The notes under the pieces were generated by a model. It did no database searches and had not been told where the DNA came from. It worked only from the letters and a program-made list of their open reading frames with translations. A stretch of 36,136 nt of DNA from Methylococcaceae bacterium (GTDB lineage: Bacteria > Pseudomonadota > Gammaproteobacteria > Methylococcales > Methylomonadaceae): positions 1 through 36,136 of the forward strand of contig JAJRDU010000154.1 of NCBI GenBank assembly GCA_028748685.1, given 5' to 3'. This document shows, piece after piece, positions 17,058 through 34,681 of this stretch (within the stretch, counting starts at the first letter, position 1; the number at the start of each line of letters is the position of its first letter). Made by a program: the position numbers and the translations under genes.

Positions 17058-17497
17058 GTCGTTTTTCTCCAAGAAAAAATCAATAAATTGATCAGAGAAC
17101 ATATCTGAACACAACTTGCCCAGGCATTACTAATGCGAACCGACCATTTGATCAAAAAAGGGTTCAGGCGTCATGATATTCCGCTTTCGATGCACTAAAT
17201 TTCGTTGCTGGATAATTCCATCTGGACGCCTCCGCACAATCCGTTATCGCTCCCCTTCTCGCTAAGTAACTATTTGGCTTGAAAATATTCCCAGCCCCCT
17301 TTTCATCAGACTATTTCAGGTTGACTTTTAGGAAAAAATCCTTCAATTTACGCATCTGGTGTGGCTATCCAAAGCGCTCGGCCCGTGCCGAAACCGCCCC
17401 CGTGGGCAGTCATCCAAACAGAGCTTTTAAACTAATATTAGTCTTAACAACACAAAACCGTACTCTGTCTCATCAACAGATTACCAGGAGGAAACAT
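17058..17497 (+). promoter_or_regulatory. Long upstream region of xoxF
   Basis: This 440-bp stretch has no convincing gene. It carries TTGACT at 17321-17326, a good -35 box, with only a weak -10 (TTCAAT at 17343-17348). It also has a perfect 12-bp palindrome, ACTAATATTAGT (17431-17442), that may be an operator or part of an A/T-rich -10, and a very strong ribosome site, AGGAGG (17486-17491), 6 nt from the xoxF ATG. The reading frame is open upstream from 17279, but that segment lacks a start signal. No riboswitch fold was recognised. Confidence 0.45.
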
Positions 17498-19351
17498 ATG
17501 AAGAAGCCTGTAAAAAACTGGCTGCTTGCTTCGACTGTAGCTACATTACTTGCTGCACCAACTGTCTCTACTGCAAACGACGACCTCGAAAAATTGACTA
17601 AGAACCCAGCCAACTGGGCAACTTGGGGTGGCGACTATGCAGGTACACGTTATAGCCAACTGTCGCAAATCAACGCACAAAACGTCAAAAACCTGCAACC
17701 AGCCTGGTCTTTTTCTACAGGTGTTCTGCGTGGTCACGAGGGCGGTCCATTAGTTGTTAACGGCGTTCTGTACATCCACACTCCGTTCCCTAACACTGTT
17801 TACGCGATAGACCAAAAAACCAAGGCCGTCATCTGGGAATTCACCCCAACGATGGATGCTGACGTGACTATCCCAGTGATGTGCTGCGATACCGTAAACC
17901 GCGGTCTGGCTTATGGCGACGGCAAAATCTTCCTGCAACAATCCGACACCGTTCTGACCGCTCTGGATGCCAAAACCGGTAAACGCGTGTGGAGTGTGCA
18001 AAACGGTGACCCAAAATTGGGTATGACCAACACCAACGCACCATTGGTTGTTAAAGACAAAGTCATCACCGGTATTTCCGGTGGTGAATTCGGTGTTCGC
18101 GGCTTCCTGGCTGCCTATGATATCCGTACCGGCCAATTGGCATGGAAAGGCTACAGCATGGGTCCTGACAAAGACACCCTGCTGAAACCAGGCAAATCTA
18201 CCACCTGGGAAAACGGTAAAGTGACGCCTGTTGGCGCAGACTCTGGCACCAGCACCTGGAAAGGCGACCAATGGAAAATCGGCGGCGGCACCACCTGGGG
18301 CTGGTACTCTTACGATCCTAAACTGAATCTGGTCTATTACGGTTCAGGCAACCCATCTACCTGGAACCCAGTACAACGTCCAGGCGACAACAAATGGTCC
18401 ATGTCTTTGTGGGCTCGTGACGCCGACACCGGTGAAGTTAAATGGGTTTACCAAATGACTCCACACGACGAATGGGACTACGACGGTATCAACGAAACCG
18501 TTCTGGTTGACCAAGAAGTGAAAGGCAAAATGCACAAAACCATCGTGCATTTCGACCGTAACGGCTTCGGTTACACCCTGGACCGCGAAACCGGCGAACT
18601 GTTGGTTGCCGAGAAATTCGACAAATCAGTCAACTGGGCTACCCACGTCGACATGAAAACCGGCCGTCCTGCGGTTGTGCCTGAGTTCTCTACCGAACAC
18701 CACGGTGAAGACGTCAACACCGTAGGTACTTGCCCTGCCGCGTTGGGTTCCAAAAACCAACAACCAGTTTCTTACTCTCCACAAACCGGCCTGTTCTACA
18801 TCTCGGGCAATCACTTGTGCATGGAGTACGAACCATTTGAAGTCTCTTACACAGCCGGCCAACCTTATGTAGGTGCCACGCTGTCCATGATGCCTGCCGG
18901 CGCTGACGTGCTGACTGGCAAAAAAGACGACAGCACCAACCTGGGTCAGTTCACCGCTTATGACGCTAAAACCGGCAAAATTGCTTGGTCCAACAAAGAA
19001 CAATTCTCTGTTTGGTCAGGTTCGGTTGCTACCGCCGGCGGCGTCGTATTCTACGGCACCCTGGAAGGCTATCTGAAAGCGGTCGATGCTAAAACCGGTA
19101 AAGAATTGTACAAATTCAAAACCCCATCAGGCATCATCGGCAACGTCAATACCTGGGAATTCGAAGGCAAACAATACGTTGGCGTCCTGTCAGGTATCGG
19201 TGGCTGGGCAGGTATCGGTATCGCGGCTGGTCTGGACGATGGCTCTTCATCAACCAACTCGGAAGGTCTGGGCGCGGTTGGTGCATACAGAAGCTTGAGC
19301 TCTTACACCAAATTGGGTGGTACACTGACTGTGTTCGCTCTGCCTAACTAA
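17498..19351 (+). CDS. xoxF: Lanthanide-dependent methanol dehydrogenase XoxF (PQQ)
   Basis: 617 residues from the ATG behind AGGAGG. A signal peptide ends at about residue 26 (VSTA-NDD), so the enzyme is periplasmic. It is an eight-bladed PQQ propeller that oxidises methanol to formaldehyde and reduces a cytochrome c. Adjacent Cys129-Cys130 form the PQQ-facing disulphide ring. Metal ligands expected from the family are Glu197 (GGEFG), Asn285 (SGNPSTW) and the catalytic Asp327. Asp329 two residues later (DEWDYDG) is the extra acid diagnostic for lanthanide-type XoxF, where calcium MxaF has a small residue. W-motif repeats such as DAKTGK recur. Codon choice is noticeably biased and less GC-rich than in its neighbours, as for a very highly expressed gene. 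It is followed by a strong terminator and xoxJ; no xoxG cytochrome is in the window. Confidence 0.97.
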
Positions 19352-20469: not shown

Positions 20470-21942
20470 TTACCTGTCAAACATCCGTATCAGATGCGAC
20501 AGATAATCGACTTTGTCGCCGGTCAACTGCGACCAGTCGAAACGCCAGCCCCAATTGCCCTCTACGGTACCCGGCGTGTTCATTCTGTCCGCGGACCCCA
20601 GCCTCAAAACGTCCTGCATCGGAATAACCGCCAGATTGGCGACCGATGCCATCGCCGCATAAATCAAGACATTGGGCATGGGCATGCTGGACCAGCCCAG
20701 GTAATCATAAATACGCTGTTTTTCAACGTCGTTCAAATGTTCGAACCAGCCCAGAGTGGTATCGTTATCGTGAGTACCGGTGTAAACGACACAGTTATGC
20801 GGGTAGTTCATCGGCAAATAAGGGTTCGCGTTATTGCCGTCAAACGCGAATTGCAGGATTTTCATGCCCGGCAAATCGAAATCATCACGTAGGGCTTCGA
20901 CCTCTTCGGTAATGATGCCCAGATCCTCGGCAACCAATGACAATGCCGGAAATGTTTTCTGAATCGCCTGCAGCAACTCGCGTCCCGGCGCCCTGACCCA
21001 TTTACCGTTAATCGCGGTATCTTCACTGGCCGGAATTTCCCAGGCGGCTTCAAGCCCCCTGAAATGATCGATCCTGAGGATATCGAACATTTCATATTGG
21101 CTATCGAGTCTATCCAGCCACCATTGGAAGCCGGTTTTTTGCAGATAATCCCAATCATAGTGAGGATTGCCCCAGCGCTGCCCGCTTTCCGAAAAATAAT
21201 CCGGCGGCACCCCCGCCACCACTTCCATCTCGCCGGCCTGGTTCAACTTGAAAACCTGCCGATTGGCCCAGGCATCCGCACTGTCATAGGAAACAAAAAT
21301 CGGAATGTCGCCAAACAGCAAAACCCCTTGTTTCCCGGCATGCGCCTTCAACTCGTGCCACTGCCGAAAAAACACATATTGCTCAAACTTGATACCGTCG
21401 AGCACCTCCGCCAACAAATGCCGCGCTTCCTTTAGCGCATCCGCATCTCTTTGTTTCAGCGCTTCCGGCCAATGGTTCCAACTTCGGTGGGCAAAAACAT
21501 TTCTCAAGGCGATGAACAGCGCAAAATCATCCAACCAGCTCGACTTATCCTGGCAAAACTGTTGAAAATCCTTGAGTTCGGCGGCATCGGCCTGAGACTT
21601 AAAGCCGTAAAAAGCCTTACCGAGCATGCAACTTTTACCGGCCTCGCGGCTTGAATCGCACTCGGCGCAACGCTCATGACTGGACAGCCAGCCCTTTTCC
21701 ACCAGCCAGTCGAGGCTGATCAGCGCCGGATTTCCGGCATGCGCGGACAGACATTGATACGGTGAGCCATCACCGTGCGGCATGCCCAGAGGCAAGGTCT
21801 GCCATACGCTGACCCCGGCATCGTGCAAAAAATTTATAAAATTATAAGCTTCTCGGCCTAAATCGCCGCACTCTCCTCGGCCCGGCAAAGAAGTAATATG
21901 CAGCAACACACCCGCGCGGCGTTTATCCAAGAGAGAACTCAT
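20470..21942 (-). CDS. malQ: 4-alpha-glucanotransferase (amylomaltase)
   Basis: 490 residues, a GH77 enzyme that transfers alpha-1,4-glucan segments between malto-oligosaccharides. Family signs are the N-terminal RAGVLLHITSLPG, the SPYQCLSAHAGNP loop, the nucleophile region ILRIDHFRGLEAAWEIPA, the acid region SLVAEDLGIIT and the third acid in YTGTHDNDTTLGW. The C-terminal NTPGTVEGNWGWR is also conserved. It is the last gene of a minus-strand run glgC-GH57-malQ and starts 18 bp after the GH57 stop. In glycogen breakdown it lengthens short maltodextrins so that phosphorylase can use them; no phosphorylase gene lies in the window. Confidence 0.96.
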   Translation of the reverse strand: MSSLLDKRRAGVLLHITSLPGRGECGDLGREAYNFINFLHDAGVSVWQTLPLGMPHGDGSPYQCLSAHAGNPALISLDWLVEKGWLSSHERCAECDSSREAGKSCMLGKAFYGFKSQADAAELKDFQQFCQDKSSWLDDFALFIALRNVFAHRSWNHWPEALKQRDADALKEARHLLAEVLDGIKFEQYVFFRQWHELKAHAGKQGVLLFGDIPIFVSYDSADAWANRQVFKLNQAGEMEVVAGVPPDYFSESGQRWGNPHYDWDYLQKTGFQWWLDRLDSQYEMFDILRIDHFRGLEAAWEIPASEDTAINGKWVRAPGRELLQAIQKTFPALSLVAEDLGIITEEVEALRDDFDLPGMKILQFAFDGNNANPYLPMNYPHNCVVYTGTHDNDTTLGWFEHLNDVEKQRIYDYLGWSSMPMPNVLIYAAMASVANLAVIPMQDVLRLGSADRMNTPGTVEGNWGWRFDWSQLTGDKVDYLSHLIRMFDR

Positions 21943-21960
21943 GTATACCTATGAAATAAA

Positions 21961-23646
21961 TTAAATTGCGTTGCCGCGCCTCATAGCCCCGCCCATAACC
22001 GGAAATCCCGACCCCTGAGTAAAGGATAGGGCAAGATAGGCCGGCGGTTCTTCGCCTAGCAGCCGATAAAGATTGCTCAGGTTCAAGCGGTATTGTTTCT
22101 CGAAATCACTGACCGCTTCGCCGGGATTGTAATCGCCAAACCACCAGAACCAATCGGAACCTTCGCAAACCGCCAATTGCATCTCGGCGGCAGCCAGTTG
22201 CTGATCGGAAATATTACCCTGCGCCACGACCTTGTCAAAAACGATTTTGACGTCGCCCAACATATCCCAGCCGCAGTTCTTATCGGCATCGCCGATCCAG
22301 GTTGAGAAGGTACCATAAACCCAACTACCCGCAACCAATCTGGATAATGTAGTCACCTCCGCCCCATTATCGAGACATTCCGAGAAGGTCGTCAGCTCAA
22401 TCCGGGGATGCTCACTCAGGCGTTTGTACAAGGCACTGAGAAAATGGTAACCGTTGTCCGGGAAGTACTCCCAGGCATTTTCGCCATCCATGATGATAGA
22501 CACAATAGGTGGCTGTTTTTCAAGGTTGGCGATATTTTCCAGATGCTGGATCAGATCCGCCACCGCATCGTCGGCATGCCATTTCGAATATTCGAAGCCA
22601 ATCAGGTCCGACAAGCCGTCGTCCCGAAAAAAACAGGCAACGTCGGCGGTCTGCAATTTAAAGGGATGATGAACACTGGTAGTCGCGGCCATCGCCGAGG
22701 CATGCACGCTATTATGCAGCACATTGCCGCCGCTGGCCGTCCATTTGAAACCGAAGTCCGATAGAATCCGCAAGGTTTGTTCACTGATGCTGCCTTCCGA
22801 CGGCCAACAACCTCGCGGCTCGAAACCGAAAAAATGCCGAAAAGTCTCGACGCCTTTCCGCAAATGCCAGCGGACACGCTCTTCGCCACCGGGATAAGCC
22901 GCCAGCATCGGCAGCATCGCACCCGGCATGGCTTCATGCGCGCTGTTAATCTCTAGCATCAGTGGCATGATGGGGTGGGCATAGGGCGTAACTGAAAGTT
23001 CGATACGGCCTTTTCGGGCCAAGGACTTGTAACGGTAAAGCACTTTCGACAGCAGATCACCGATGATTTCGACGACTTCAATTCGGTCATGCAGCGTGAA
23101 GTTATTGCCTTTTTCTATCAACCTGCTGACACGGAAGTCGGTCAGCTTAACCGTCTCGCCCATCCAGATCAGGTGGTACCACACCAAAATATCCGAGATG
23201 AACTGCGAGTTGACGTAGTTGATTGCATCCTGATGGCCTTTGAGCCAATCGGCCATTTCGATCAACTTCCGAAACGCCGGATAGCGGTTGATTTGTCTTT
23301 CCCGATTGGCTTTCTTGCAATCCCTGAGCAATTTCAAGCGTTTTTCCGGGTCGGCCGACACCGAAGGCTCAACCAAGGCAGACAACAAGGGATCTTTTAT
23401 CGCGATGCGATCATGCAGGTAACCTGTGACCTGATTGGAATAATCCTCGATCTGTTCGAGTAGTATCGGCGCGAAATTGACGACCGCCCTGGCTTCCGGC
23501 ACCGCTTCCAGATGCGCCACCATGTCGACATAATCCTTGATGACATGCAAATAGGTCCACGGCAACTTGAATTCGCCATTATTCCTGTCCCGATATTCCG
23601 GCTGGTGCATGTGCCAACACAGCACCAGCTTCAATTTACCGGACAT
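21961..23646 (-). CDS. GH57 family alpha-glucan hydrolase/transferase
   Basis: 561 residues starting [14 protein letters not shown], the typical GH57 opening with its HQP motif. Other family regions are [27 protein letters not shown] with the likely nucleophile Glu, and [17 protein letters not shown] with the likely acid Asp. A C-terminal segment [12 protein letters not shown] and FWWFGDYN is usual in the alpha-amylase-like branch. GH57 contains amylases, branching enzymes and amylopullulanases; the sequence alone does not tell which. The start codon lies inside the end of glgC (11-nt overlap), so it is translationally coupled to glycogen synthesis. It probably trims or rearranges glycogen. 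It has no signal peptide and acts in the cytoplasm. Confidence 0.9.
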
Positions 23647-24916
23647 AATGCCGTCTTTGCCCCAGCATATCGGAAGTGACCAATACCACGCCTCCTGCGC
23701 TCACGTAAAAACGTTTTTCGTCGTCGGCCTTATCCTCGCCGATGATGGTGCCTTCGGGAACCTGGCAGCCTTTTTCGATAATCGCCTTGGTTATCCGGCA
23801 ATGCCTACCAATGTTCACGTCCGGCATCACCACGGAATCTTGCACCGTGCTATAGGAATTAACCCTAACTTGCGAAAACAGCAACGAGTGCCTGACGGTG
23901 GCACCGGAAATCACGCAGCCGCCGGATACCATGGAGTCGATCGCCTGACCTCTTCTATCGTCGTCATCGAAAACAAACTTGGCTGGCGGGGTTTGCGACT
24001 GATAGGTCCAGATCGGCCAGGTGTTATCGTACAGATTAAGGTCGGGCTTAACTCCGATCAATTCCATATTGGCCGCCCAATAGGCATCGATGGTTCCCAC
24101 ATCGCGCCAGTAGCTTTGTTGACCGCTTTGCAAATCCAAAAATGGATAGGCATTGACCCGGTACTTATCGATGACCGACGGAATGATGTCCTTACCGAAA
24201 TCGCGATGGGAGCCTGGCATGTCGGCATCCTTGATCAGTTGTTCGAACAGGAATGGGGCATTAAATACATAGATACCCATCGATGCCAACGCGGTCGTCT
24301 CACTACCCGGCATCTTCGGCGGATTGGCCGGCTTTTCGACGAAGGCCCTGACCCGCCGGTTATCGTCCACATGCATCACGCCGAATTCCTTGGCGTCCGC
24401 CAGAGGCACCTCGATACAGCCTATGGTCAAATCGGCATCATTGGCGACATGGTCCGCCAGCATCGCCGCATAATCCATTTTGTAAATGTGGTCGCCGGCC
24501 AGTACCAAGATAAACTCGGGATTGCGAGCCCGCAAAATGTCGATATTCTGATAGATGGCATCGGCGGTACCCTGGTACCAGGAGTGTTCGTCATGGCGTT
24601 GCTGGGCCGGCATCAAATCCACATACTCGCCGAATTCGCCGCGCAGGAATCCCCAGCCTTGCTGGATGTGCCTGATCAGTGAATCGGCCTTGTATTGGGT
24701 CAAGACCCCTATTTTGCGGATATCGGAATTGATGCAGTTGGACAAGGGAAAATCGATGATGCGAAACTTGCCGCCGAACGGCACCGCCGGCTTGGCGCGC
24801 CAGTCGGTCATATGCTTGAGTCTCGAACCGCGTCCGCCGGCTAAAATCAGGGCAATGGTGTTACGGGTAAGCTCATTGATCCTTCTCTGCTTATTTTTTG
24901 AGTCCACGACTGTCAT
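23636..24916 (-). CDS. glgC: Glucose-1-phosphate adenylyltransferase (ADP-glucose pyrophosphorylase)
   Basis: 426 residues. It makes ADP-glucose from ATP and glucose 1-phosphate, the committed step of bacterial glycogen synthesis. The nucleotide loop is [14 protein letters not shown] with [21 protein letters not shown] following; the SWYQGTADA and [10 protein letters not shown] segments and FVEKP complete the sugar-binding site. The C-terminal part (about 300-426) is a left-handed beta-helix that normally carries allosteric sites. A GGAAGGGG ribosome site precedes the ATG at 24916. It is divergent from glgB at 25121 across 204 bp, which likely holds promoters for both arms, though I could not fix clear -35/-10 pairs there. 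Confidence 0.97.
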
Positions 24917-25120
24917 TATTATCCCCTTCCAATGAATTGTAATCGCTGCCGAAAAGCTGCTCTCGGCGGATTTGTATCTAGTTTCGCTTGCCGCCTCGGG
25001 CCATTATCGTTACTCTTCACCGAAAAGTAAAAATCAAGCGGTTCAATGCTACGAATCGGATTATTTATAGATTACCGACTCTTTCCAAAAACAAACTCAC
25101 TATAACTGAGGCGCTATAAA

Positions 25121-27298
25121 ATGAACAAGCCAAGCAAAAAAAACACGCTTGATTCGAACATCGTAAAAATTATCGAGGCCAAACATCACGACCCTTTTTC
25201 CGTTCTCGGCCGCCATAGCCAAGGCAATAAAACCGTCATCAGGGCCTTTCTGCCGTATGCGGAAACCGTAAGGATAGGCGCCGACGGCCCGGTAATGCAG
25301 CGCATCACCGGCACCGATGCCTTTGAATATTATCCGGAAAAAGAAGAAATACCTACCCATTACCAATTATGCTGGACCGACAAGGATGGTCACGCCCATC
25401 AAGATTACGACCCTTACACCTTTGGCGCCGTATTACCGGAGTTCGATCAACATTTGTTCGCCGAGGGCCGGCACTGGCACATCTATCAAAAACTCGGTTC
25501 GCATCTGCATAATATCGACGGCATAGACGGTGTCTACTTCGCGGTATGGGCGCCGAATGCCCAACGGGTCAGCGTGGTCGGCGACTTCAATCGCTGGGAC
25601 GGCCGCACCCATCCGATGCGCAACCTCGGCGGCAGCGGTATCTGGGAAATTTTCATTCCCGGCCTGACCACCGGCTGTCTTTACAAATACGAGATCATCA
25701 ATCGCCACAGCGACGAATTACTGGTCAAGACCGACCCTTACGGACAACAATTCGAATTCCGTCCGCAAACTGCGGCGATCGTGATCGAGGAAGACCGCTA
25801 CCAATGGCTGGACAGCCTATGGATGGAGCAAAGGCCAAAACATAACTGGCTGCACGAACCGATGTCGATCTACGAGGTGCATCTAGGCTCTTGGCAACGC
25901 GACAGTCGCGGCAACTTCCTCAATTACCGAGAACTGGCCGTGCAGCTGGTCGATTACGTCAAGGAAATGGGCTTCACGCATATCGAGTTGTTGCCGATTA
26001 CGGAACATCCGCTCGACGTCTCCTGGGGCTACCAGACCACAGGCTATTTTGCGCCTACCAGCCGCCACGGTACCCCCGACGACTTCCGCTATTTCGTCGA
26101 CACCTGTCATCAGAACGGCATCGGCGTATTGCTGGACTGGGTGCCCGCGCACTTTCCCAAGGACAACTTTGCATTGGCGCGCTTCGACGGCACCCCGCTC
26201 TATGAACACGAAGATCCGCGCAAGGGCGAACACCGCGATTGGGGAACCTTGATCTACAACTACAACCGCAACGAAGTGAAAAACTTCCTGCTCGCCAGCG
26301 CCTTCTTCTGGCTCGAGGAATTCCACTTAGACGGCCTCAGGGTCGATGCCGTGGCTTCGATGTTATATCTCGATTATTCGCGAGACGCCAACGACTGGAT
26401 ACCCAATATGTACGGCGGCAACGAAAATCTGGAGGCCATAGACTTCCTGCGCCACATGAACGCGGTCACCCACGAACAGCATCCCGGCACCGTGATCATG
26501 GCCGAGGAATCCACGTCCTGGCCGCAGGTGACCCGCCCGACCTGGACCGGCGGGCTGGGCTTCTCGATGAAATGGAACATGGGCTGGATGCACGACATCC
26601 TCTGCTACATGAAGGAAGAGCCCATCCATCGCTCCTACCATCATGACCAACTGACCTTCGGCATGCTTTACGCGTTTACCGAAAACTTCATCCTGCCGTT
26701 CTCCCACGACGAAGTGGTGCACGGCAAACAGTCGCTGCTCAACAAAATGCCCGGCGACGAATGGCAGCGTTTCGCCAACCTACGCCTGCTCTATACCCTG
26801 ATGTTCACCTATCCGGGCAAGAAACTGTTGTTCATGGGCTGCGAATTCGGCCAGGGTACGGAATGGAGCGTGAACCGGGTTCTGGACTGGTATGTGCTGG
26901 ATTATGCGCATCATCGAGGCGTGCAAACCCTGGTCAAGGATCTCAATAAGTTGTACAAGACACATTCCTCGCTATACCACTATGATTTCGACCATCACGG
27001 TTTCGAATGGATAGACTGCCACGACGTCCAACAATCCATCATCAGTTACCGCCGCAAATCGGCCCACGAGGATTTGATCGTGATTCTGAATTTCACGCCG
27101 GTCCCCCGCGAAGGCTACCGCATCGGCGTTCCCGACGAAGGCACCTACCATGAAATTTTCAACTCCGACTCCCATTATTACGACGGCAGCAATGTCGGCA
27201 ATGGCTACGTGGCGTCGGAACCGCAACCCTGGATGAACCTGCCGCACTCCGTGACGGTCAACCTACCGCCCTTGGCCGGCATCATCCTGAAAATGTAA
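25121..27298 (+). CDS. glgB: 1,4-alpha-glucan branching enzyme (GH13)
   Basis: 725 residues, full length for the long GlgB type with two N-terminal sandwich domains. Residues about 20-110 form the first (DPFSVLGRH opening) and about 125-215 a CBM48 module ([21 protein letters not shown]). The GH13 barrel holds the nucleophile Asp409 (LRVDAVASM), the acid Glu462 (MAEEST) and Asp530 (FSHDEVVHG), with spacings identical to those of E. coli GlgB (405, 458, 526). The enzyme cuts alpha-1,4 chains and rejoins them as alpha-1,6 branches. A GAGG site lies upstream of the ATG. It heads the plus-strand arm with glgA, separated from it by a 351-bp repeat region. Confidence 0.97.
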
Positions 27299-27649
27299 CC
27301 GATGTTAAGCGAAGTTGGTTTTATACCCCGTTATTCCGCCCCGAGCATCGCAGCTTTTGGCGAAAAAGGCCTGTTAAGGGAGCGGCAAGGATGCTGCTCG
27401 TTTTCGCAGGGCCAAGGACGGCCCTTCGAAAACCCTCGCCAAAAGCGAGAAGCGCAGGCATCAGGCGGAATCCGGGTCGCCTTTTCTTTGGATACTTTCT
27501 TTTGGCGAAGCAAAAGAAAGTATCCCGCCCGCCGGTGCGGGAACCGGCATTTAGAACACTGTCGCGATAGCGACACCATCAAACAAAAATTAGCAAAGGT
27601 TCGTGGGCTGTTGAGTCCGCTTAACATCAGAAAGTAAACCGACACACAC
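27299..27649 (+). repeat. Repeat-element region between glgB and glgA with a perfect 15-bp hairpin
   Basis: No gene is supported here. The core is GGATACTTTCTTTTG (27490-27504) and its exact complement CAAAAGAAAGTATCC (27511-27525) with a 6-nt loop, followed by a GC-rich block CCCGCCCGCCGGTGCGGG. This pattern (a TTTCTTT...AAAGAAA hairpin plus GC-rich tail) resembles a dispersed non-coding repeat I recall from many proteobacterial genomes. An open frame crosses the region from 27302 to 27637, but its protein is low-complexity and basic, as expected for translated repeat DNA. The hairpin, with no T-run after it, could reduce read-through from glgB into glgA. Confidence 0.65.
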
Positions 27650-29083
27650 ATGAAAAAAATACTGTTCGCCAGCAGCGAAACCCATCCCTTGATCAAGACC
27701 GGCGGCCTGGCCGACGTCGCCGGCAGCCTGCCGATTGCGCTCTCGGAACTCGGACAGGAGGTGCGCATCATCATGCCCAACTACCAGGGCATCAATAACT
27801 ATGAACCTGGCCGCTACCTATGCACGGTGAGAGTCAACAACTGCGACGTCAACATTCTGGAAACGCACTTGCCCAATAGCGGGGTGATTGTCTGGTTGGT
27901 CGATTATCCGCCATTCTTCAATTTCCCCGGCAACCCTTATGTCGATGAAGCAGGCCTACCTTGGCCCGACATCGGCGACCGCTTCGCGCTGTTTTGCCGC
28001 ATCGTGGTGGAAGTGGCCATGGACCGGGCTTATCTGAATTGGAAACCGGATGTCGTACATTGCAACGACTGGCAAACCGGCCTGGTACCGGCCTTGTTGT
28101 CGCTTGAACATCACCGGCCGGCGACGATATTCACCATCCACAACATGGCTTACCAGGGCGTATTTCCCAGCACGACTTACACGCTGTTGAATCTGCCCGG
28201 CCAGTTGTGGAACCCCAATGGTCTCGAATATCACGGCATGCTGTCCTTCATCAAGGGCGGCTTGAGTTTTGCCGACCGCATCACCACGGTCAGCCCGACC
28301 TACGCCGAAGAGATTCAGAAGCCCGAATTCGGCTACGGTCTGGAAGGCTTACTGGCATACCGGCGGGATATATTATCCGGCATCATCAACGGCATCGATA
28401 CTTCGGTCTGGAATCCCTCGACGGATGCCCATATCACTCAAACCTATAGCGCGGACTCCCTGCCGGACAAAAAGCTCAATAAGACCGTCTTGCAGCAACA
28501 ACTCGGTCTGCCGATCGATGCCGAGACACCGCTGTTCGCCCTGATAGGCCGACTGGTCGACCAAAAAGGCATCGATCTGGTGTTGAGCTGCCTGCCGGAA
28601 ATGACTCACCTGCCCTTGCAATTCACGCTGCTGGGCAGTGGCGACAAGAGCGTCGAACTCAAATTGCTGAATTTCGCCCGCCTCTATCCCGAAAAAGTCG
28701 CCATCACCATAGGTTACGACGAACACCTGGCGCACCAGATCGAGGCCGGCGCCGATATGTTCCTGATGCCGTCCCGCTTCGAGCCTTGCGGCCTCAACCA
28801 GATGTATAGCCAGCGCTACGGCACGCTGCCCATCGTTCGGAAAACCGGCGGGCTGGCCGACACCGTGGTCGATACACTGCCGGGGAGCATGGCCGACGGC
28901 ACAGCCAGCGGCTTCGTGTTCAGCGACGCAGTTCCGGCCGCACTGCTGGAAGCCATCAAGCGTAGCCTGGTGTTATTCGACAACAAACCGGTCTGGGAAA
29001 AACTCCAGCGTAACGCGATGAGCAAGGATTTCTCCTGGCTGAACAGCGCTAACCAATATATGGAGCTTTACCGTGAAATTTAG
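27650..29083 (+). CDS. glgA: Glycogen synthase (GT5)
   Basis: 477 residues. It adds glucose from ADP-glucose to the growing alpha-1,4 glucan. The ADP-glucose loop KTGGLADV starts at Lys16, matching the catalytic Lys15 region of E. coli GlgA. The N-terminal Rossmann domain continues to about 240, including FTIHNMAYQGVFP and the GLSFADRITTVSPTYAEEI turn. The C-terminal domain has LIGRLVDQKGIDL and the GT-B signature SRFEPCGLNQMYSQRYGTLP with the nucleotide-facing Glu. The gene is shorter in its leader than usual only because repeat DNA precedes it; no strong ribosome site is seen before the ATG. Its end overlaps the next gene by 11 nt. Confidence 0.97.
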   Translation: MKKILFASSETHPLIKTGGLADVAGSLPIALSELGQEVRIIMPNYQGINNYEPGRYLCTVRVNNCDVNILETHLPNSGVIVWLVDYPPFFNFPGNPYVDEAGLPWPDIGDRFALFCRIVVEVAMDRAYLNWKPDVVHCNDWQTGLVPALLSLEHHRPATIFTIHNMAYQGVFPSTTYTLLNLPGQLWNPNGLEYHGMLSFIKGGLSFADRITTVSPTYAEEIQKPEFGYGLEGLLAYRRDILSGIINGIDTSVWNPSTDAHITQTYSADSLPDKKLNKTVLQQQLGLPIDAETPLFALIGRLVDQKGIDLVLSCLPEMTHLPLQFTLLGSGDKSVELKLLNFARLYPEKVAITIGYDEHLAHQIEAGADMFLMPSRFEPCGLNQMYSQRYGTLPIVRKTGGLADTVVDTLPGSMADGTASGFVFSDAVPAALLEAIKRSLVLFDNKPVWEKLQRNAMSKDFSWLNSANQYMELYREI

Positions 29084-30999: not shown

Positions 31000-31509
31000 C
31001 TATTTCGCCGCAAACGGATGTTTCGCGGTCGCTTTTGCCTCGACCACTTCCGTAGCGCTCGGCCAGCCTCTAACCGCTCGCTCTATGGCCTGCCTGGTCG
31101 CTTCGTAATTGTAGCGCTGGATTTTTTCGTCATCTTCCGCGGCCCAGTGAATGAACACGCCGACCGATATGAACAGATTGTCCGCTTCTTCCATCGGTAT
31201 AGTACCGTTTTCGACCGCATCGGCCACCGCCATCGCGACACCGCGTTGCGCCGGCCCGAACATTTGCACCGCCTGTCTGGAACCTTTGATGGTTACTTTA
31301 TTGAAAAGAATAGTGGCCGGCTTGACCATCAAGTTGGGCGCGACCACCGCCAACAAGGTGGAAAAGCCGTCCTTGTTGTTGGTCAACGCCAGCGCGAAGG
31401 CTGTTTCGGCGGCCGAACCGCGCGGCCCCATGATCAGATCGATATGAGCGATCTCGTTGCCATCGCCGACCAGGGATTCACCGACACATAAGCGATTGAT
31501 TTTTGACAT
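31000..31509 (-). CDS. fae: Formaldehyde-activating enzyme
   Basis: 169 residues. It speeds the condensation of formaldehyde with tetrahydromethanopterin to methylene-H4MPT in the cytoplasm, the entry to the main formaldehyde-oxidation route of methylotrophs. The family core is easy to see: [22 protein letters not shown] with the catalytic His22, [19 protein letters not shown], and [25 protein letters not shown] site precedes the ATG at 31509. It follows the bd-like operon on the same strand with a 34-bp gap, so cotranscription is likely. Some methylotrophs carry divergent Fae paralogues; the close match of the core suggests a working enzyme. The C-terminal tail ([16 protein letters not shown]) is slightly extended. 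Confidence 0.95.
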
Positions 31510-31543: not shown

Positions 31544-32845
31544 CTAGTCCAGCATAAACTTGCTGATGGCTAGGAGTTCCGCATCGCCCAACTGCGGAAA
31601 GCCCGGCATTTGCATACTATTTGCCCGCTTCTTGCCCGGACTCTTGGTCCAGCGCACGATACCGGCCGGATTGCCGGCATAGTCCTTCCGGATTTCTTCC
31701 AGCGAAGGTCCTACCGTCGGCAAGCTGTGATGATGGCAGGCCGCGCAATTCTGCTTGAATCCGGTTTCTCCGGGCTCCTCCATCCCGGTGTGCCTGGCTT
31801 GCTCGACCAACTTGGCCTGCTCCTGTACTTCGGCCACGGCCGCCATGTAGTTGGCGGTTTTTTCGGCAATGGCGACCTTGTGATCGTGCAGCGCATTTTC
31901 CCGATATTCGTGCCTGGCAACGCCCATCACCACCAAGGCGCCAATGAACAAGGCGATGATTCTAGGGAAGTGATCATCCACCGAATTTTCAGGGTGGCTG
32001 ATATTGGCCCACATCCAGCGCAAGGCCGGTAGCGCCAGCGAGCCGCCGAAAAACAGCAACAAGGTCACCCCCCAACTCATGCCTTGCGGCGGCAGCGAGA
32101 CGAAGACGATCAATCCGCTAAATATCTGAAATATCGTCGCGCCAAAGGCAAACGCATAGAAAAAGCGGCGGATGACCAGGGACTGCCCAGGGCTGAATTT
32201 CACGTCTTCTTGAAAAGAGGGCCGACCGCTCCACCAGACAAAGAACAAGGAACTGAACAGGATGGCTGCCGACACGAAGTGCAAATAGCGCGGCAAGACG
32301 TTGGGCAACAGCATCGCGGAAAAGAAGCCCCTGACCTCCGGCCAATATTCGGGAAACAACATCAGATTGACGTTGGTCATATAGATCAGCGGAATGAACA
32401 GAAACAGCGCCGATTCCAGCGCCGAAATCCCGATGTGCAACTCGGGAATATTGACGAAGCGGTGCCACCAGAATTTGTGCGCATACGCCAACAGGAACGC
32501 GACGATGACCAGCGGAATCACCGCCATCCAGGCGCTCCCGATCAAGGCACTGGAGGCATAGAACTGCGGCGCGTAAAGGGTATTGATGATCAGCAGCGGC
32601 GCCACCCCCATCACCACCGCCATGCTCTTGTTAACCGTAACCGCCTGCATGATCTTGTAGGCCAGCGTCTCGTACGCCGGGATTTTCAAGCCTTTTATCT
32701 GGCAAAACAAACTGAACAAGGAGCCGCCCAGCATCATATGCACGAACACGATATGCACGATGAACGAAACGATCAATAACACTTCGAGTAAGCCTTCCGG
32801 CGCGGGGAGCGGCAATGGAATATCGCGTGGAACGGGAAAAGTCAT
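31544..32845 (-). CDS. CydA-like membrane subunit with C-terminal c-type haem domain
   Basis: 433 residues with about eight membrane helices in the first 310, then a periplasmic linker and a monohaem cytochrome c domain: Cys367-Ala-Ala-Cys370-His371, with likely sixth ligand Met413 in MQMPGFPQL. The membrane part resembles CydA of the cytochrome bd superfamily: His31 and His36 in the first helix ([14 protein letters not shown]), a second-third helix pair with [14 protein letters not shown], and His189 ([12 protein letters not shown]) near the place of the CydA haem-b ligand His186. No quinol-binding Q-loop can be seen. Its start overlaps the stop of the upstream partner gene by 1 nt (TAATG), so they form one complex or operon. 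Together they could receive electrons from a cytochrome c and reduce oxygen or another acceptor; this is inference. Confidence 0.65.
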
Positions 32846-34296
32846 TAGTGGGTTCCTGGTTGAGGTTTAGCAAGATCGGGTAAAGTGCCGTAGTGGGTCG
32901 CCGAGGAAATCTTGTCCGGCTTGGGAATGCCGGTGGTTTGCGCGCCCTCGATAGCCCGGGCGCGGGTTTGCAGCGACACCAGATAGACCGACAAGGCTTC
33001 CAGCTCGGAGCTATTGCCCGGAAACGGCGGCATGAAATAGCGGGCGCCATGCATGTTGTCTATGTAGGCGGCGATCACGGAAGCATTCCAAGGCTTCTCG
33101 CCGTACATCTTGATCAGCTGCGCGCGTATGCCGTTGACGCCCTTGACGGTATGGCAGCGCGTACAGGCGATCTCAAACACTTCTCGTCCGGCCTTCACCT
33201 GGTTATCGGGGGTAATGTGGCGAATGTCGGTGTAAGTCGCGTGTTGCAACATGCCGTCGCGCTGCAACAAAGGGTAATCGGATACCCGGATGCCGTTCGC
33301 ATACATGTAATTGCCGACGATAAACGGTTTGCGAATAAATTCCCTGACCCGCTCAAACTGGCCCAACATCAGACACAACACGACGAGCGAGGCCAAGTAT
33401 TTGCCGCCATGTACTTTGCCGGGCTGGCGTATGCTCTCCAGCAACACCCAGGCCACAAACAGCGAGCCGATAATCAGCAGCCACTTAAAGTTTGCATGCC
33501 AGTCGGTGTACTCCTGAGTGGTGATCGCCACCGGCAAGTTGGCCAGCATATTTTGAGGCACCACTTGGTAATACCAGTACGAGGCGATCACCAACACCCC
33601 CATCCATAGCGCGGACCAACGGGCGATCAAAAACATGACCCCGCTGCGTAGCGGCAGATCATTGACGGTGAACCAGTACATGAAACAAATCATGGTCATG
33701 CCGCCCATCACCATGGCCAACGAGGTTCTAAACGCCAGTTGCGGCGCGTACATCGGATTGAATAAACCCGATAACAGCGACTGATCGCTATGCCAATTGC
33801 CGGGCTCCATCATGAATCCCAGGATCGCCACGATGATGGCCATCGTGATCCAGGAAAATACCGCCAGCGCAATCCCCAACTTCAAATGTTTGTGTTTGGC
33901 TTCGGGAGACTTGGCTGCGGATTGCCAGCTCAGGAAATAGACCATAATCAACGAGACTTCGGTGACAAACACCAGCCATTCGGCAAACCAGCCCCAGAAA
34001 AACACCCGAATCAAGCTGCCTATCGCGGCGGGGTTGACCAAGGCCGCCGAAAACCAGATGCCGACTCCGGTCATCGCGCCAACGGTCGTGGTGACGATGA
34101 AAATGACTTTTAACAAACGATAAGCCAGTTGATCCCAGCGCGGATCTCGGTTACTGATACCGATATATTCCAGCAAGGCAATGATAGGCAAAGCTCCTAT
34201 CGCAAAGGCGTGATTTATCAGAACGTGCAAAATCGCATCGGCCGCGATCAATAGGCGATTGCCGATAAAATCGATATGAAAAATTGGAAAATCCAT
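32845..34296 (-). CDS. CydA-superfamily catalytic-type subunit with C-terminal c-type haem domain
   Basis: 483 residues. Nine or so membrane helices precede a cytochrome c domain: Cys378-Thr-Arg-Cys381-His382, with Met422 in YFMPPFPG as likely sixth ligand. The order of CydA features is kept: His29 in LINHAFAIGAL (like His19), GAMTGVG then acidic Glu106 and Glu113 in WFAEWLVFVTEV (like the oxygen-site acids Glu99/Glu107), and RKPFIVG as a degenerate GRQPWAIG. The place of haem-b ligand His186 reads LAFRTSL, so it is probably Arg190. The long quinol-binding loop is missing. Cytochrome bd relatives with c-haem tails and no Q-loop have been described from surveys of the superfamily (OR-C type); I place this pair there tentatively. 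First gene of the operon, then the partner and fae. Confidence 0.7.
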   Translation of the reverse strand: MDFPIFHIDFIGNRLLIAADAILHVLINHAFAIGALPIIALLEYIGISNRDPRWDQLAYRLLKVIFIVTTTVGAMTGVGIWFSAALVNPAAIGSLIRVFFWGWFAEWLVFVTEVSLIMVYFLSWQSAAKSPEAKHKHLKLGIALAVFSWITMAIIVAILGFMMEPGNWHSDQSLLSGLFNPMYAPQLAFRTSLAMVMGGMTMICFMYWFTVNDLPLRSGVMFLIARWSALWMGVLVIASYWYYQVVPQNMLANLPVAITTQEYTDWHANFKWLLIIGSLFVAWVLLESIRQPGKVHGGKYLASLVVLCLMLGQFERVREFIRKPFIVGNYMYANGIRVSDYPLLQRDGMLQHATYTDIRHITPDNQVKAGREVFEIACTRCHTVKGVNGIRAQLIKMYGEKPWNASVIAAYIDNMHGARYFMPPFPGNSSELEALSVYLVSLQTRARAIEGAQTTGIPKPDKISSATHYGTLPDLAKPQPGTH

Positions 34297-34681
34297 GCTT
34301 ATCCCGGAGAGTGAATACTAAAAATTGCGCATACCCACCCCCAATAGCAATTGCCGTGCCTGGTTTGTCGAGAAACAACGTTTTTTGCGACGAACCCTTT
34401 AAACTAGAGGGCTGTAAGGAAGTGCGAAGGATTCGATGAATGCAGTATGCCAGCCGTCTCGGTAGCGCCGTGCCGGCGTAAGAGTGTAAAAACTAGACAG
34501 GTATCCATTAATTGAACGCCCAATAAATGGATAGCGGCCGCTCGATCCGAGCCACCCAAGGTTGAGCGGCTCATGGTTCGACAAGGCTCTCCTGAGCGTA
34601 GTCGAAGGGCTCACCACGAATGGCTTAACTTAACGGTATTGCCTCTCCGATAAAGCGCTGGGACGAGGCGCACCGACGCGA
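34297..34681. other. Gene-free, repeat-rich gap upstream of the bd-like operon
   Basis: I find no gene in these 385 bp. Close to the operon start is TTGT-N6-ACAA (34365-34378), a weak match to an FNR/CRP-type site. At 34577-34606, TTCGAC...GGCTC pairs with GAGC...GTCGAA, part of a dispersed REP-like repeat reading GGCTCTCCTGAGCGTAGTCG. ATCCATT (34503-34509) and AATGGAT (34526-34532) form another short inverted repeat. An open frame across 34399-34617 on the minus strand is translated repeat sequence and is not counted as a gene. Confidence 0.5.

Follow-up and report, generated by a model that had tools for sequence, protein, structure and literature searches.

When copper becomes scarce, methanotrophs switch from the copper-dependent particulate methane monooxygenase to the iron-based soluble methane monooxygenase (sMMO), and the cytochrome c oxidases on which they normally rely likewise depend on copper. 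Methanol-derived electrons are fed in at the level of cytochrome c, i.e. out of reach of a quinol-oxidising bd enzyme. The closest described system is that of Methylococcus capsulatus, where MCA1187 was described by Ward et al. in 2004 as a novel eight-helix monohaem cytochrome (PMC517821). Larsen and Karlsen reported in 2015, in the passages concerned with these genes, that MCA1187 and MCA1185 rise 28.3-fold and 13.8-fold, respectively, in copper-limited, sMMO-producing cells, while the caa3 oxidase falls, and that MCA1187 peptides are detected only in sMMO-producing cells (in the inner membrane according to the text, in the inner and outer membrane according to the table). The authors noted that the b558 ligands are lost and the oxygen-site residues kept, and proposed the protein to be a copper-independent cytochrome c oxidase, ‘cytochrome cbd’ (PMC4831470). 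Here, we analyse two adjacent genes, P0001 and P0002, in a stretch of 36,136 nucleotides from a Methylococcaceae bacterium (contig JAJRDU010000154.1 of assembly GCA_028748685.1; hereafter the window). We consider it likely that the product of this pair is a heterodimeric oxygen reductase of the bd superfamily that is free of copper, takes its electrons from cytochrome c and is made together with sMMO under copper shortage, its activity being predicted. This function is already in print for the homologue MCA1187, because Larsen and Karlsen proposed the same role, and the idea is thus not new. A 2025 survey of Methylobacter genomes names bd, aa3 and caa3 oxidases, with no mention of the pair in the part of its text that deals with them (PMC12810054).

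What Pfam and NCBIfam recognise in the two proteins is confined to their cytochrome c tails (residues ~366-439 in P0001), to the exclusion of the membrane parts, and an NCBIfam search gave no family above its cut-off for either. AlphaFold models of P0001 (predicted local distance difference test score (pLDDT) 76.0, predicted TM-score (pTM) 0.71) and P0002 (pLDDT 78.7, pTM 0.69) had as their best VIA matches 5doq_A (Z 26.9, 320 residues, 3.7 Å) and 7ose_A (Z 23.7, 295 residues, 3.5 Å), respectively. For both, the first ten matches were bd oxidases, whose chains we take to be subunit I (CydA), 5doq_A being named so, and subunits of alternative complex III ranked next (Z 18.1 for P0001, 16.1 for P0002). 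Judged by these models, both subunits have the CydA fold, in agreement with a preliminary description made from the sequence, which had called them CydA-related membrane proteins and had named a profile search against CydA as a check. In that search, P0001 matches the Geobacillus CydA 5doq_A (E 8e-10). The membrane part of P0002 gave no CydA match in a sequence/profile search of the PDB, and its profile alignment with CydA is very weak (probability 1%); it is related to CydA through the P0001 family, with which most of its sequence can be aligned (hhalign probability 98, E 1.3e-13).

The haem-binding residues point in the same direction. Alignment of P0001 with its own type (A1; L018, which is 5' truncated, and L020, from the same genome as L021, were left out) shows the oxygen-site candidates His24, Glu106, Glu113 and Glu319, along with Arg190, to be invariant in 22 sequences, and all five are also kept in at least eight of nine sequences of a distant type discussed below. 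The C-terminal CxxCH motifs and their Met ligands, as picked out in the preliminary description, are real as well: C378/C381/H382/M422 of P0001 are invariant in the 22 sequences, and C367/C370/H371/M413 of P0002 in 20 (A2, leaving out L018, L020, L036 and L038 as near-duplicate or truncated), the window being included in both counts. In the profile alignment, His24 coincides with His21 of 5doq_A, presumably the haem ligand equivalent to E. coli CydA His19. Glu113 corresponds to E. coli Glu107, and Glu106 fits Glu99 to within one residue. Of the CydA-like residues named earlier, Glu106 and Glu113 are therefore retained, whereas His29, though invariant like His24, gives way to the latter as the position aligned to His19. 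P0001 thus possesses the oxygen-site ligands of a bd oxidase. The E. coli ligand numbers used here (His19, Glu99, Glu107, Glu445, His186, Met393) are in part those given in passages of PMC4831470.

At the place of the b558 ligand His186, no His is found in the P0001 alignment, which has a one-residue ambiguity between Phe189 and Arg190; the Arg190 assigned to this place earlier is indeed invariant, but the place may also be that of Phe189. The membrane domain of P0001 ends near residue 330, that of E. coli CydA near 458 in the fold comparison, leaving no room for a Q-loop, the absence of which had been noted before. P0001 therefore lacks both the Q-loop and the b558 His of the quinol oxidase CydAB. 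The CydA fold of both subunits would suit a conventional cytochrome bd that oxidises quinol and bears its c-haem domains as mere decoration, but with these two features gone, no CydB recognised beside the pair and separate CydA genes (PF01654) present in the same genome, such an enzyme is highly improbable. P0002 has three conserved histidines, His31, His189 and His312. The first two line up with His19 and His186 of E. coli CydA, as had been suggested for His189, in the very weak alignment mentioned above, and His312 stands opposite Glu319 of P0001 in the profile alignment of the two subunits. Loss of the b558 site and the rank of alternative complex III among the fold matches could also be expected of an electron-transfer membrane complex linking quinones and cytochrome c, in which P0001 no longer reduces O2. 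However, the bd folds stand 8.8 and 7.6 Z units above alternative complex III, the Q-loop is gone and the residues corresponding to the oxygen site of CydA are invariant, which makes this complex quite unlikely.

The evidence is best read as a cytochrome c-fed oxidase because a relation to CydA is combined with the lack of a quinol site, with c-haem tails and with a set of haem sites that is divided between the subunits; to this extent, the earlier inference of a cytochrome c-fed oxidase with split haem sites holds, but not its use of the adjoining gene fae as a meaningful neighbour. In such an enzyme, methanol dehydrogenase, a plausible source of electrons, and/or the bc1 complex would reduce a periplasmic cytochrome c, which in turn would feed the c-haem domains. 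From these, electrons would travel on, possibly by way of one or more P0002 haems, to the two-haem site in P0001. There, O2 would be reduced to water with protons taken from the cytoplasm, so that a membrane potential would arise without a copper-dependent haem-copper oxidase. If this is true, a copper-free cytochrome c oxidase closes the respiratory gap of copper-starved methanotrophs, a branch of the bd superfamily without a quinol site gains a well-placed physiological role, and methane sinks in copper-poor sediments may be affected. One carrier of the pair, Methylotuvimicrobium buryatense (L028), is reportedly open to genetic manipulation, so that the idea is directly testable.

Where the pair occurs also speaks for a role alongside sMMO. 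A pattern-based scan of genome_contigs (84,980 species) for close relatives gave 23 loci, all from Methylococcales or Verrucomicrobia and with proteins 42-97% identical. Both genes were found in 23/23, so that their pairing is not due to chance; P0002 runs off the end of the stretch in L036 and L038, and lies 2 and 7 kb further on in L035 and L038. Distant relatives were seen in 11 genomes of family f4, which we take to be Methylococcaceae, in a draw of 201 genomes of the order, and in 6 further genomes (two with partial matches) in a draw of 274 genomes of the class. A Verrucomicrobia phylum draw had a match in 9/288 genomes, four of them of the window's type. In five of the 13 Methylococcales loci (L022, L023, L024, L028 and L037), mmoX lies 4-5 kb downstream of the pair on the same strand, with other open reading frames (ORFs) in between and further sMMO genes following where the contig continues. 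MmoY, MmoB, MmoZ, MmoD and MmoC exceeded their NCBIfam cut-offs, and MmoX was identified by its Phenol_Hydrox Pfam domain together with its neighbours. In the window's own genome, mmoX is on another contig. Across the order draw, mmoX is present in 20/21 genomes with the oxidase family versus 28/180 without it (Fisher p 1.7e-13). In the family draw, 15/201 genomes match at E 0.001, i.e. 12 with a full-length close homologue, one with a distant one (G018) and two partially, and mmoX occurs in 11 of these 12, G064 being the exception, compared with 45/201 overall. By the strength of association, sMMO, and not fae, is the informative partner of the pair.

The promoters tie the pair to the same regulon. 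Within 200 nt upstream of P0001 homologues, a sigma54-type -24/-12 element is found in 12/13 Methylococcales loci, some of them closely related (L018 was left out of the promoter tests), compared with a mean of 0.46 and a maximum of 4 in shuffled sequences and 2/111 upstream of other ORFs. In nine pair loci, the site lies 105-109 nt from the start codon, and L028, the sole exception, has an element 430 nt upstream. The 500 nt upstream of mmoX contain a sigma54 candidate in 17/17 cases (one a duplicate; 16 score at least 10, one scores 8). A palindrome, TGTCTAnTnAnTAGACA, modelled on 16 mmoX promoters alone (the duplicate L041 being left out and L043 having no site within 400 nt), reappears in the 400 nt preceding the pair. 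With a cut-off of 9.5 bits, it is present in 10/13 pair promoters versus 2/60 background regions, with 0.20 of 13 in shuffles. Nine regions had been removed from this background because divergent genes share the intergenic region of the pair or of mmoX, and the contrast is weaker with the uncleaned set (9/69). Four of the 13 pair promoters reach 14 bits, several pair sites being degenerate versions, and the site listed in table 1 is the only one at or above 14 bits in the window. The pair thus shows both features of the mmoX regulon, a sigma54 promoter and the common palindrome. MmoR is described as acting at the mmoX promoter in the relevant passages of PMC5874634, and, by analogy, the activator at the palindrome is probably MmoR working with sigma54. 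As a separate observation, the leader between sigma54 site and start codon folds into a strong hairpin in L019:7908-8000 (z -5.4), L020:1321-1409 (z -9.8) and L023:7912-8000 (z -3.1), with paired changes between the Methylobacter loci L019 and L020 seen by eye. A conserved RNA leader was rejected: the window reaches only z -2.1, L024 and L037 have no strong fold, and a consensus of nine sequences contains no pairs.

The Verrucomicrobial homologues are wired differently. A sigma54 element occurs in 1/10 of their upstream regions (shuffles 0.84), and 10/10, some near-identical, carry a box resembling TGCGG-N6-CCRCA at -50 to -54. The same box, its pattern having been written after inspection of these upstream regions, appears in only 2/86 other upstreams, both before a RegB-like kinase gene. 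A RegB-like kinase is encoded near 8/10 pairs, all 7 ORFs checked for GGxxNPF having it, and 7/10 have a RegA-like regulator close by; from the RegA binding motif and the kinase signature GGxxNPF, we take this to be a RegBA-like system. Going by these motifs, the arrangement fits a terminal oxidase under redox control. In one other gammaproteobacterium (L110:7183-12316), the oxidase genes are clustered with those for a flavocytochrome c sulfide dehydrogenase flavoprotein (PF21706, PF09242) and a dihaem cytochrome, and the cluster of another (L111:2936-8151) resembles it, which suggests a sulfide-fed version of the oxidase. In L108:4367-6199 (G418), the partner subunit is prolonged at its C-terminus by a long extension with two CxxCH motifs, which represents a third mode of c-haem attachment. 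Side reactions of bd oxidases with nitric oxide and H2O2 are known, and a two-haem site could bind either, as expected if the pair were a bd-family reductase of nitric oxide or peroxide, induced under the same conditions for protection and not for respiration. Yet, the pair is associated with sMMO or else with a redox system like RegBA, no stress genes were recognised beside it in flanks without systematic annotation, and, in the passages of PMC4831470 cited above, MCA1187 rises while caa3 falls; we regard this alternative as unlikely.

Several points weigh against a cytochrome c-fed oxidase made together with sMMO. Concerning the enzyme itself, the AlphaFold models represent each subunit alone, with no complex and no cofactors, which limits what they say about haem geometry, and Glu319 was equated with Glu445 by eye from the RKPF/GRQPW motif and from the ends of the fold alignment. 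P0002 has no conserved Glu at the Glu99 and Glu107 places and, by its sequence, may be structural only, and the copper-response data come from the distant homologue MCA1187 and not from the window's pair. Concerning the link to sMMO, three genomes have a member of the oxidase family without mmoX (G064, which is 75% complete, G270 and G018), 28/48 mmoX genomes of the order draw have no member of the family, the family and order draws overlap, and the Fisher tests ignore relatedness. Within the window's genus, the association is weaker (mmoX in 5/5 genomes with the family versus 10/24 without, p 0.042), and mmoX is matched in 0/10 genomes with Verrucomicrobial homologues by a query that does match in Methylococcales, so that the enzyme itself is not methane-specific. 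Finally, the test of the palindrome was not blind, because the motif had been spotted by visual inspection of the two promoter sets ahead of matrix training, and the nine distant-type upstreams show neither sigma54 element nor palindrome consistently (one has a sigma54-like site with a score of 10, another the palindrome at 16.1 bits).

The layout of the locus is given in table 1. The P0001 stop and P0002 start codons overlap by 1 nt and fae follows after a gap of 34 nt, these distances and the ORF positions being found in the window just as first described. By this arrangement, fae is probably co-transcribed with the pair. As a general functional partner, however, fae was rejected, because among the loci compared it adjoins the pair only in Methylomonas relatives (the window, L018, L040, G107 and G141) and because the window's genome has a second copy, 82% identical, on contig C182; the copy beside the pair may be the one used under sMMO conditions. 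Relatives of the small protein of ~100 aa follow the pair (or fae) in 11/13 Methylococcales loci. Its candidacy as a third subunit is weakened, since its family is present in 68/201 genomes, and it is probably not an oxidase subunit. In Methylobacter-like genomes, a conserved protein of ~225 aa (L022:6757-7434, homologues in 6 loci) is encoded beside the pair or between the pair and mmoX, and the one tested had no Pfam match. Elsewhere in the window, ~12 kb from the pair, positions 17279-19351 encode a pyrroloquinoline quinone-dependent dehydrogenase of the methanol/ethanol family (TIGR03075), XoxF-like by eye and followed by a periplasmic binding protein-like ORF, and positions 20470-29083 a glycogen metabolism cluster (4-alpha-glucanotransferase, glucose-1-phosphate adenylyltransferase, branching enzyme GlgB and glycogen synthase GlgA).

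Table 1. Features of the oxidase locus, with positions counted from the first nucleotide of the window.
Feature	Position	Strand	Basis or remark
P0001, CydA-like subunit with C-terminal c-haem	34296..32845	minus	ORF, 483 aa
P0002, second CydA-like subunit with C-terminal c-haem	32845..31544	minus	ORF, 433 aa
fae, formaldehyde-activating enzyme	31509..31000	minus	TIGR03126 and PF08714 matches
Small protein, ~100 aa	30580..30894	minus	relatives adjoin the pair (or fae) in other loci
sigma54-type -24/-12 promoter element AGGCACGGCAATTGCT	34346..34361	minus	65 nt upstream of P0001 start
Candidate activator palindrome CGTTCAATTAATGGATA	34502..34518	minus	14.0 bits against motif learned from mmoX promoters

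How the pair entered the sMMO setting can be approached from the distant type. The genes of f4, equated with MCA1187, MCA1186 and MCA1185 by gene order (the MCA1187 sequence itself lying outside the comparison), are arranged as CydA-like/c, partner, dihaem cytochrome and pyrophosphatase (PF03030), with mmoX 7.6 kb away in G203. The f4 homologues are 26-28% identical to the window's type, and distant-type partner proteins match P0002 at 28-34% over 113-195 aa. In a P0001 tree, a branch with support 100/100 and a length of 2.95 changes per site sets the distant type (18 rows) apart from that of the window and from the Verrucomicrobial relatives of the latter. Inside the distant type, the proteins of f4 form a group with those of other Gammaproteobacteria (100/100). 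Only the branch setting the distant type apart is firm; long branches meet, and rooting with E. coli CydA (branch 9.3) is unreliable, the two own-type groups not forming one clade in the rooting as drawn (86/57, 86/58). Duplicates (L102-L105, L113, L116 and L123) were left out of the trees, as were loci with a missing, partial or truncated subunit from the second-subunit tree, which is a quick tree only. Since each of the two sMMO-linked types has closer relatives than the other one, the P0001 tree suggests two separate recruitments into the sMMO/copper setting. This history is not settled, given the long branches, the unreliable root and G018, a genome of the window's family which has the distant type without mmoX. 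As a single joint claim, which we put forward tentatively and regard as open to considerable doubt, methanotrophic Gammaproteobacteria may have recruited a copper-free bd-superfamily cytochrome c oxidase into the copper switch at least twice, once as the Methylococcus-like type (CydA-like/c, plain CydA-like and dihaem c) and once as the window's type, whose nearest non-methanotroph relatives would be Verrucomicrobial and under RegBA-like control; in the latter type, two CydA-like subunits would each have c-haem input, with a haem in P0002, bound via His31/His189/His312, serving as a relay or second catalytic site.

Among known systems, the quinol oxidase CydAB (5doq, 6rx4, 7ose) shares with the pair the CydA fold and, in P0001, the oxygen-site residues, but differs in its Q-loop and b558 His, in having a CydB, which was not recognised beside the pair, in place of a second CydA-like subunit, and in having no added c-haems. 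The OR-C branch of the bd superfamily, reportedly defined by Murali, Gennis and Hemp in 2021, is said to be without a quinol site and to have a c-haem tail; the pair is likened to it by description only. For the OR-N type CydAA' of Nitrospira and Nitrospinota, it has been proposed that two CydA-like proteins form a complex whose likely donor is cytochrome c; the pair resembles it, again by description only, while the relevant passages of these papers treat CydAA' as a separate branch and describe no c-haem tails in it (PMC10839748, PMC12342949). With the MCA1187 system, the pair shares a CydA-like subunit with a C-terminal CxxCH, the same haem ligands kept and lost, a partner subunit and a link to sMMO. 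P0001 has the composition of a ‘cytochrome cbd’ (membrane domain plus CxxCH, oxygen site kept, b558 His and Q-loop lost), and P0002 is an MCA1186-like partner, as far as gene order equates the f4 partner with MCA1186. The f4 partner, however, lacks a c-haem and has Phe at 189 and Glu at 312, whereas P0002 has a c-haem, His189 and His312. A separate dihaem cytochrome accompanies 5/9 distant-type loci; no such MCA1185-like protein was seen beside the pair in the window, where a mono-haem domain is fused to P0002 instead. Relative to what has been published for MCA1187, new here are the c-haem on both subunits, the distance of this type from the Methylococcus-like one and the regulatory connections, among them RegBA-like control in the Verrucomicrobial relatives.

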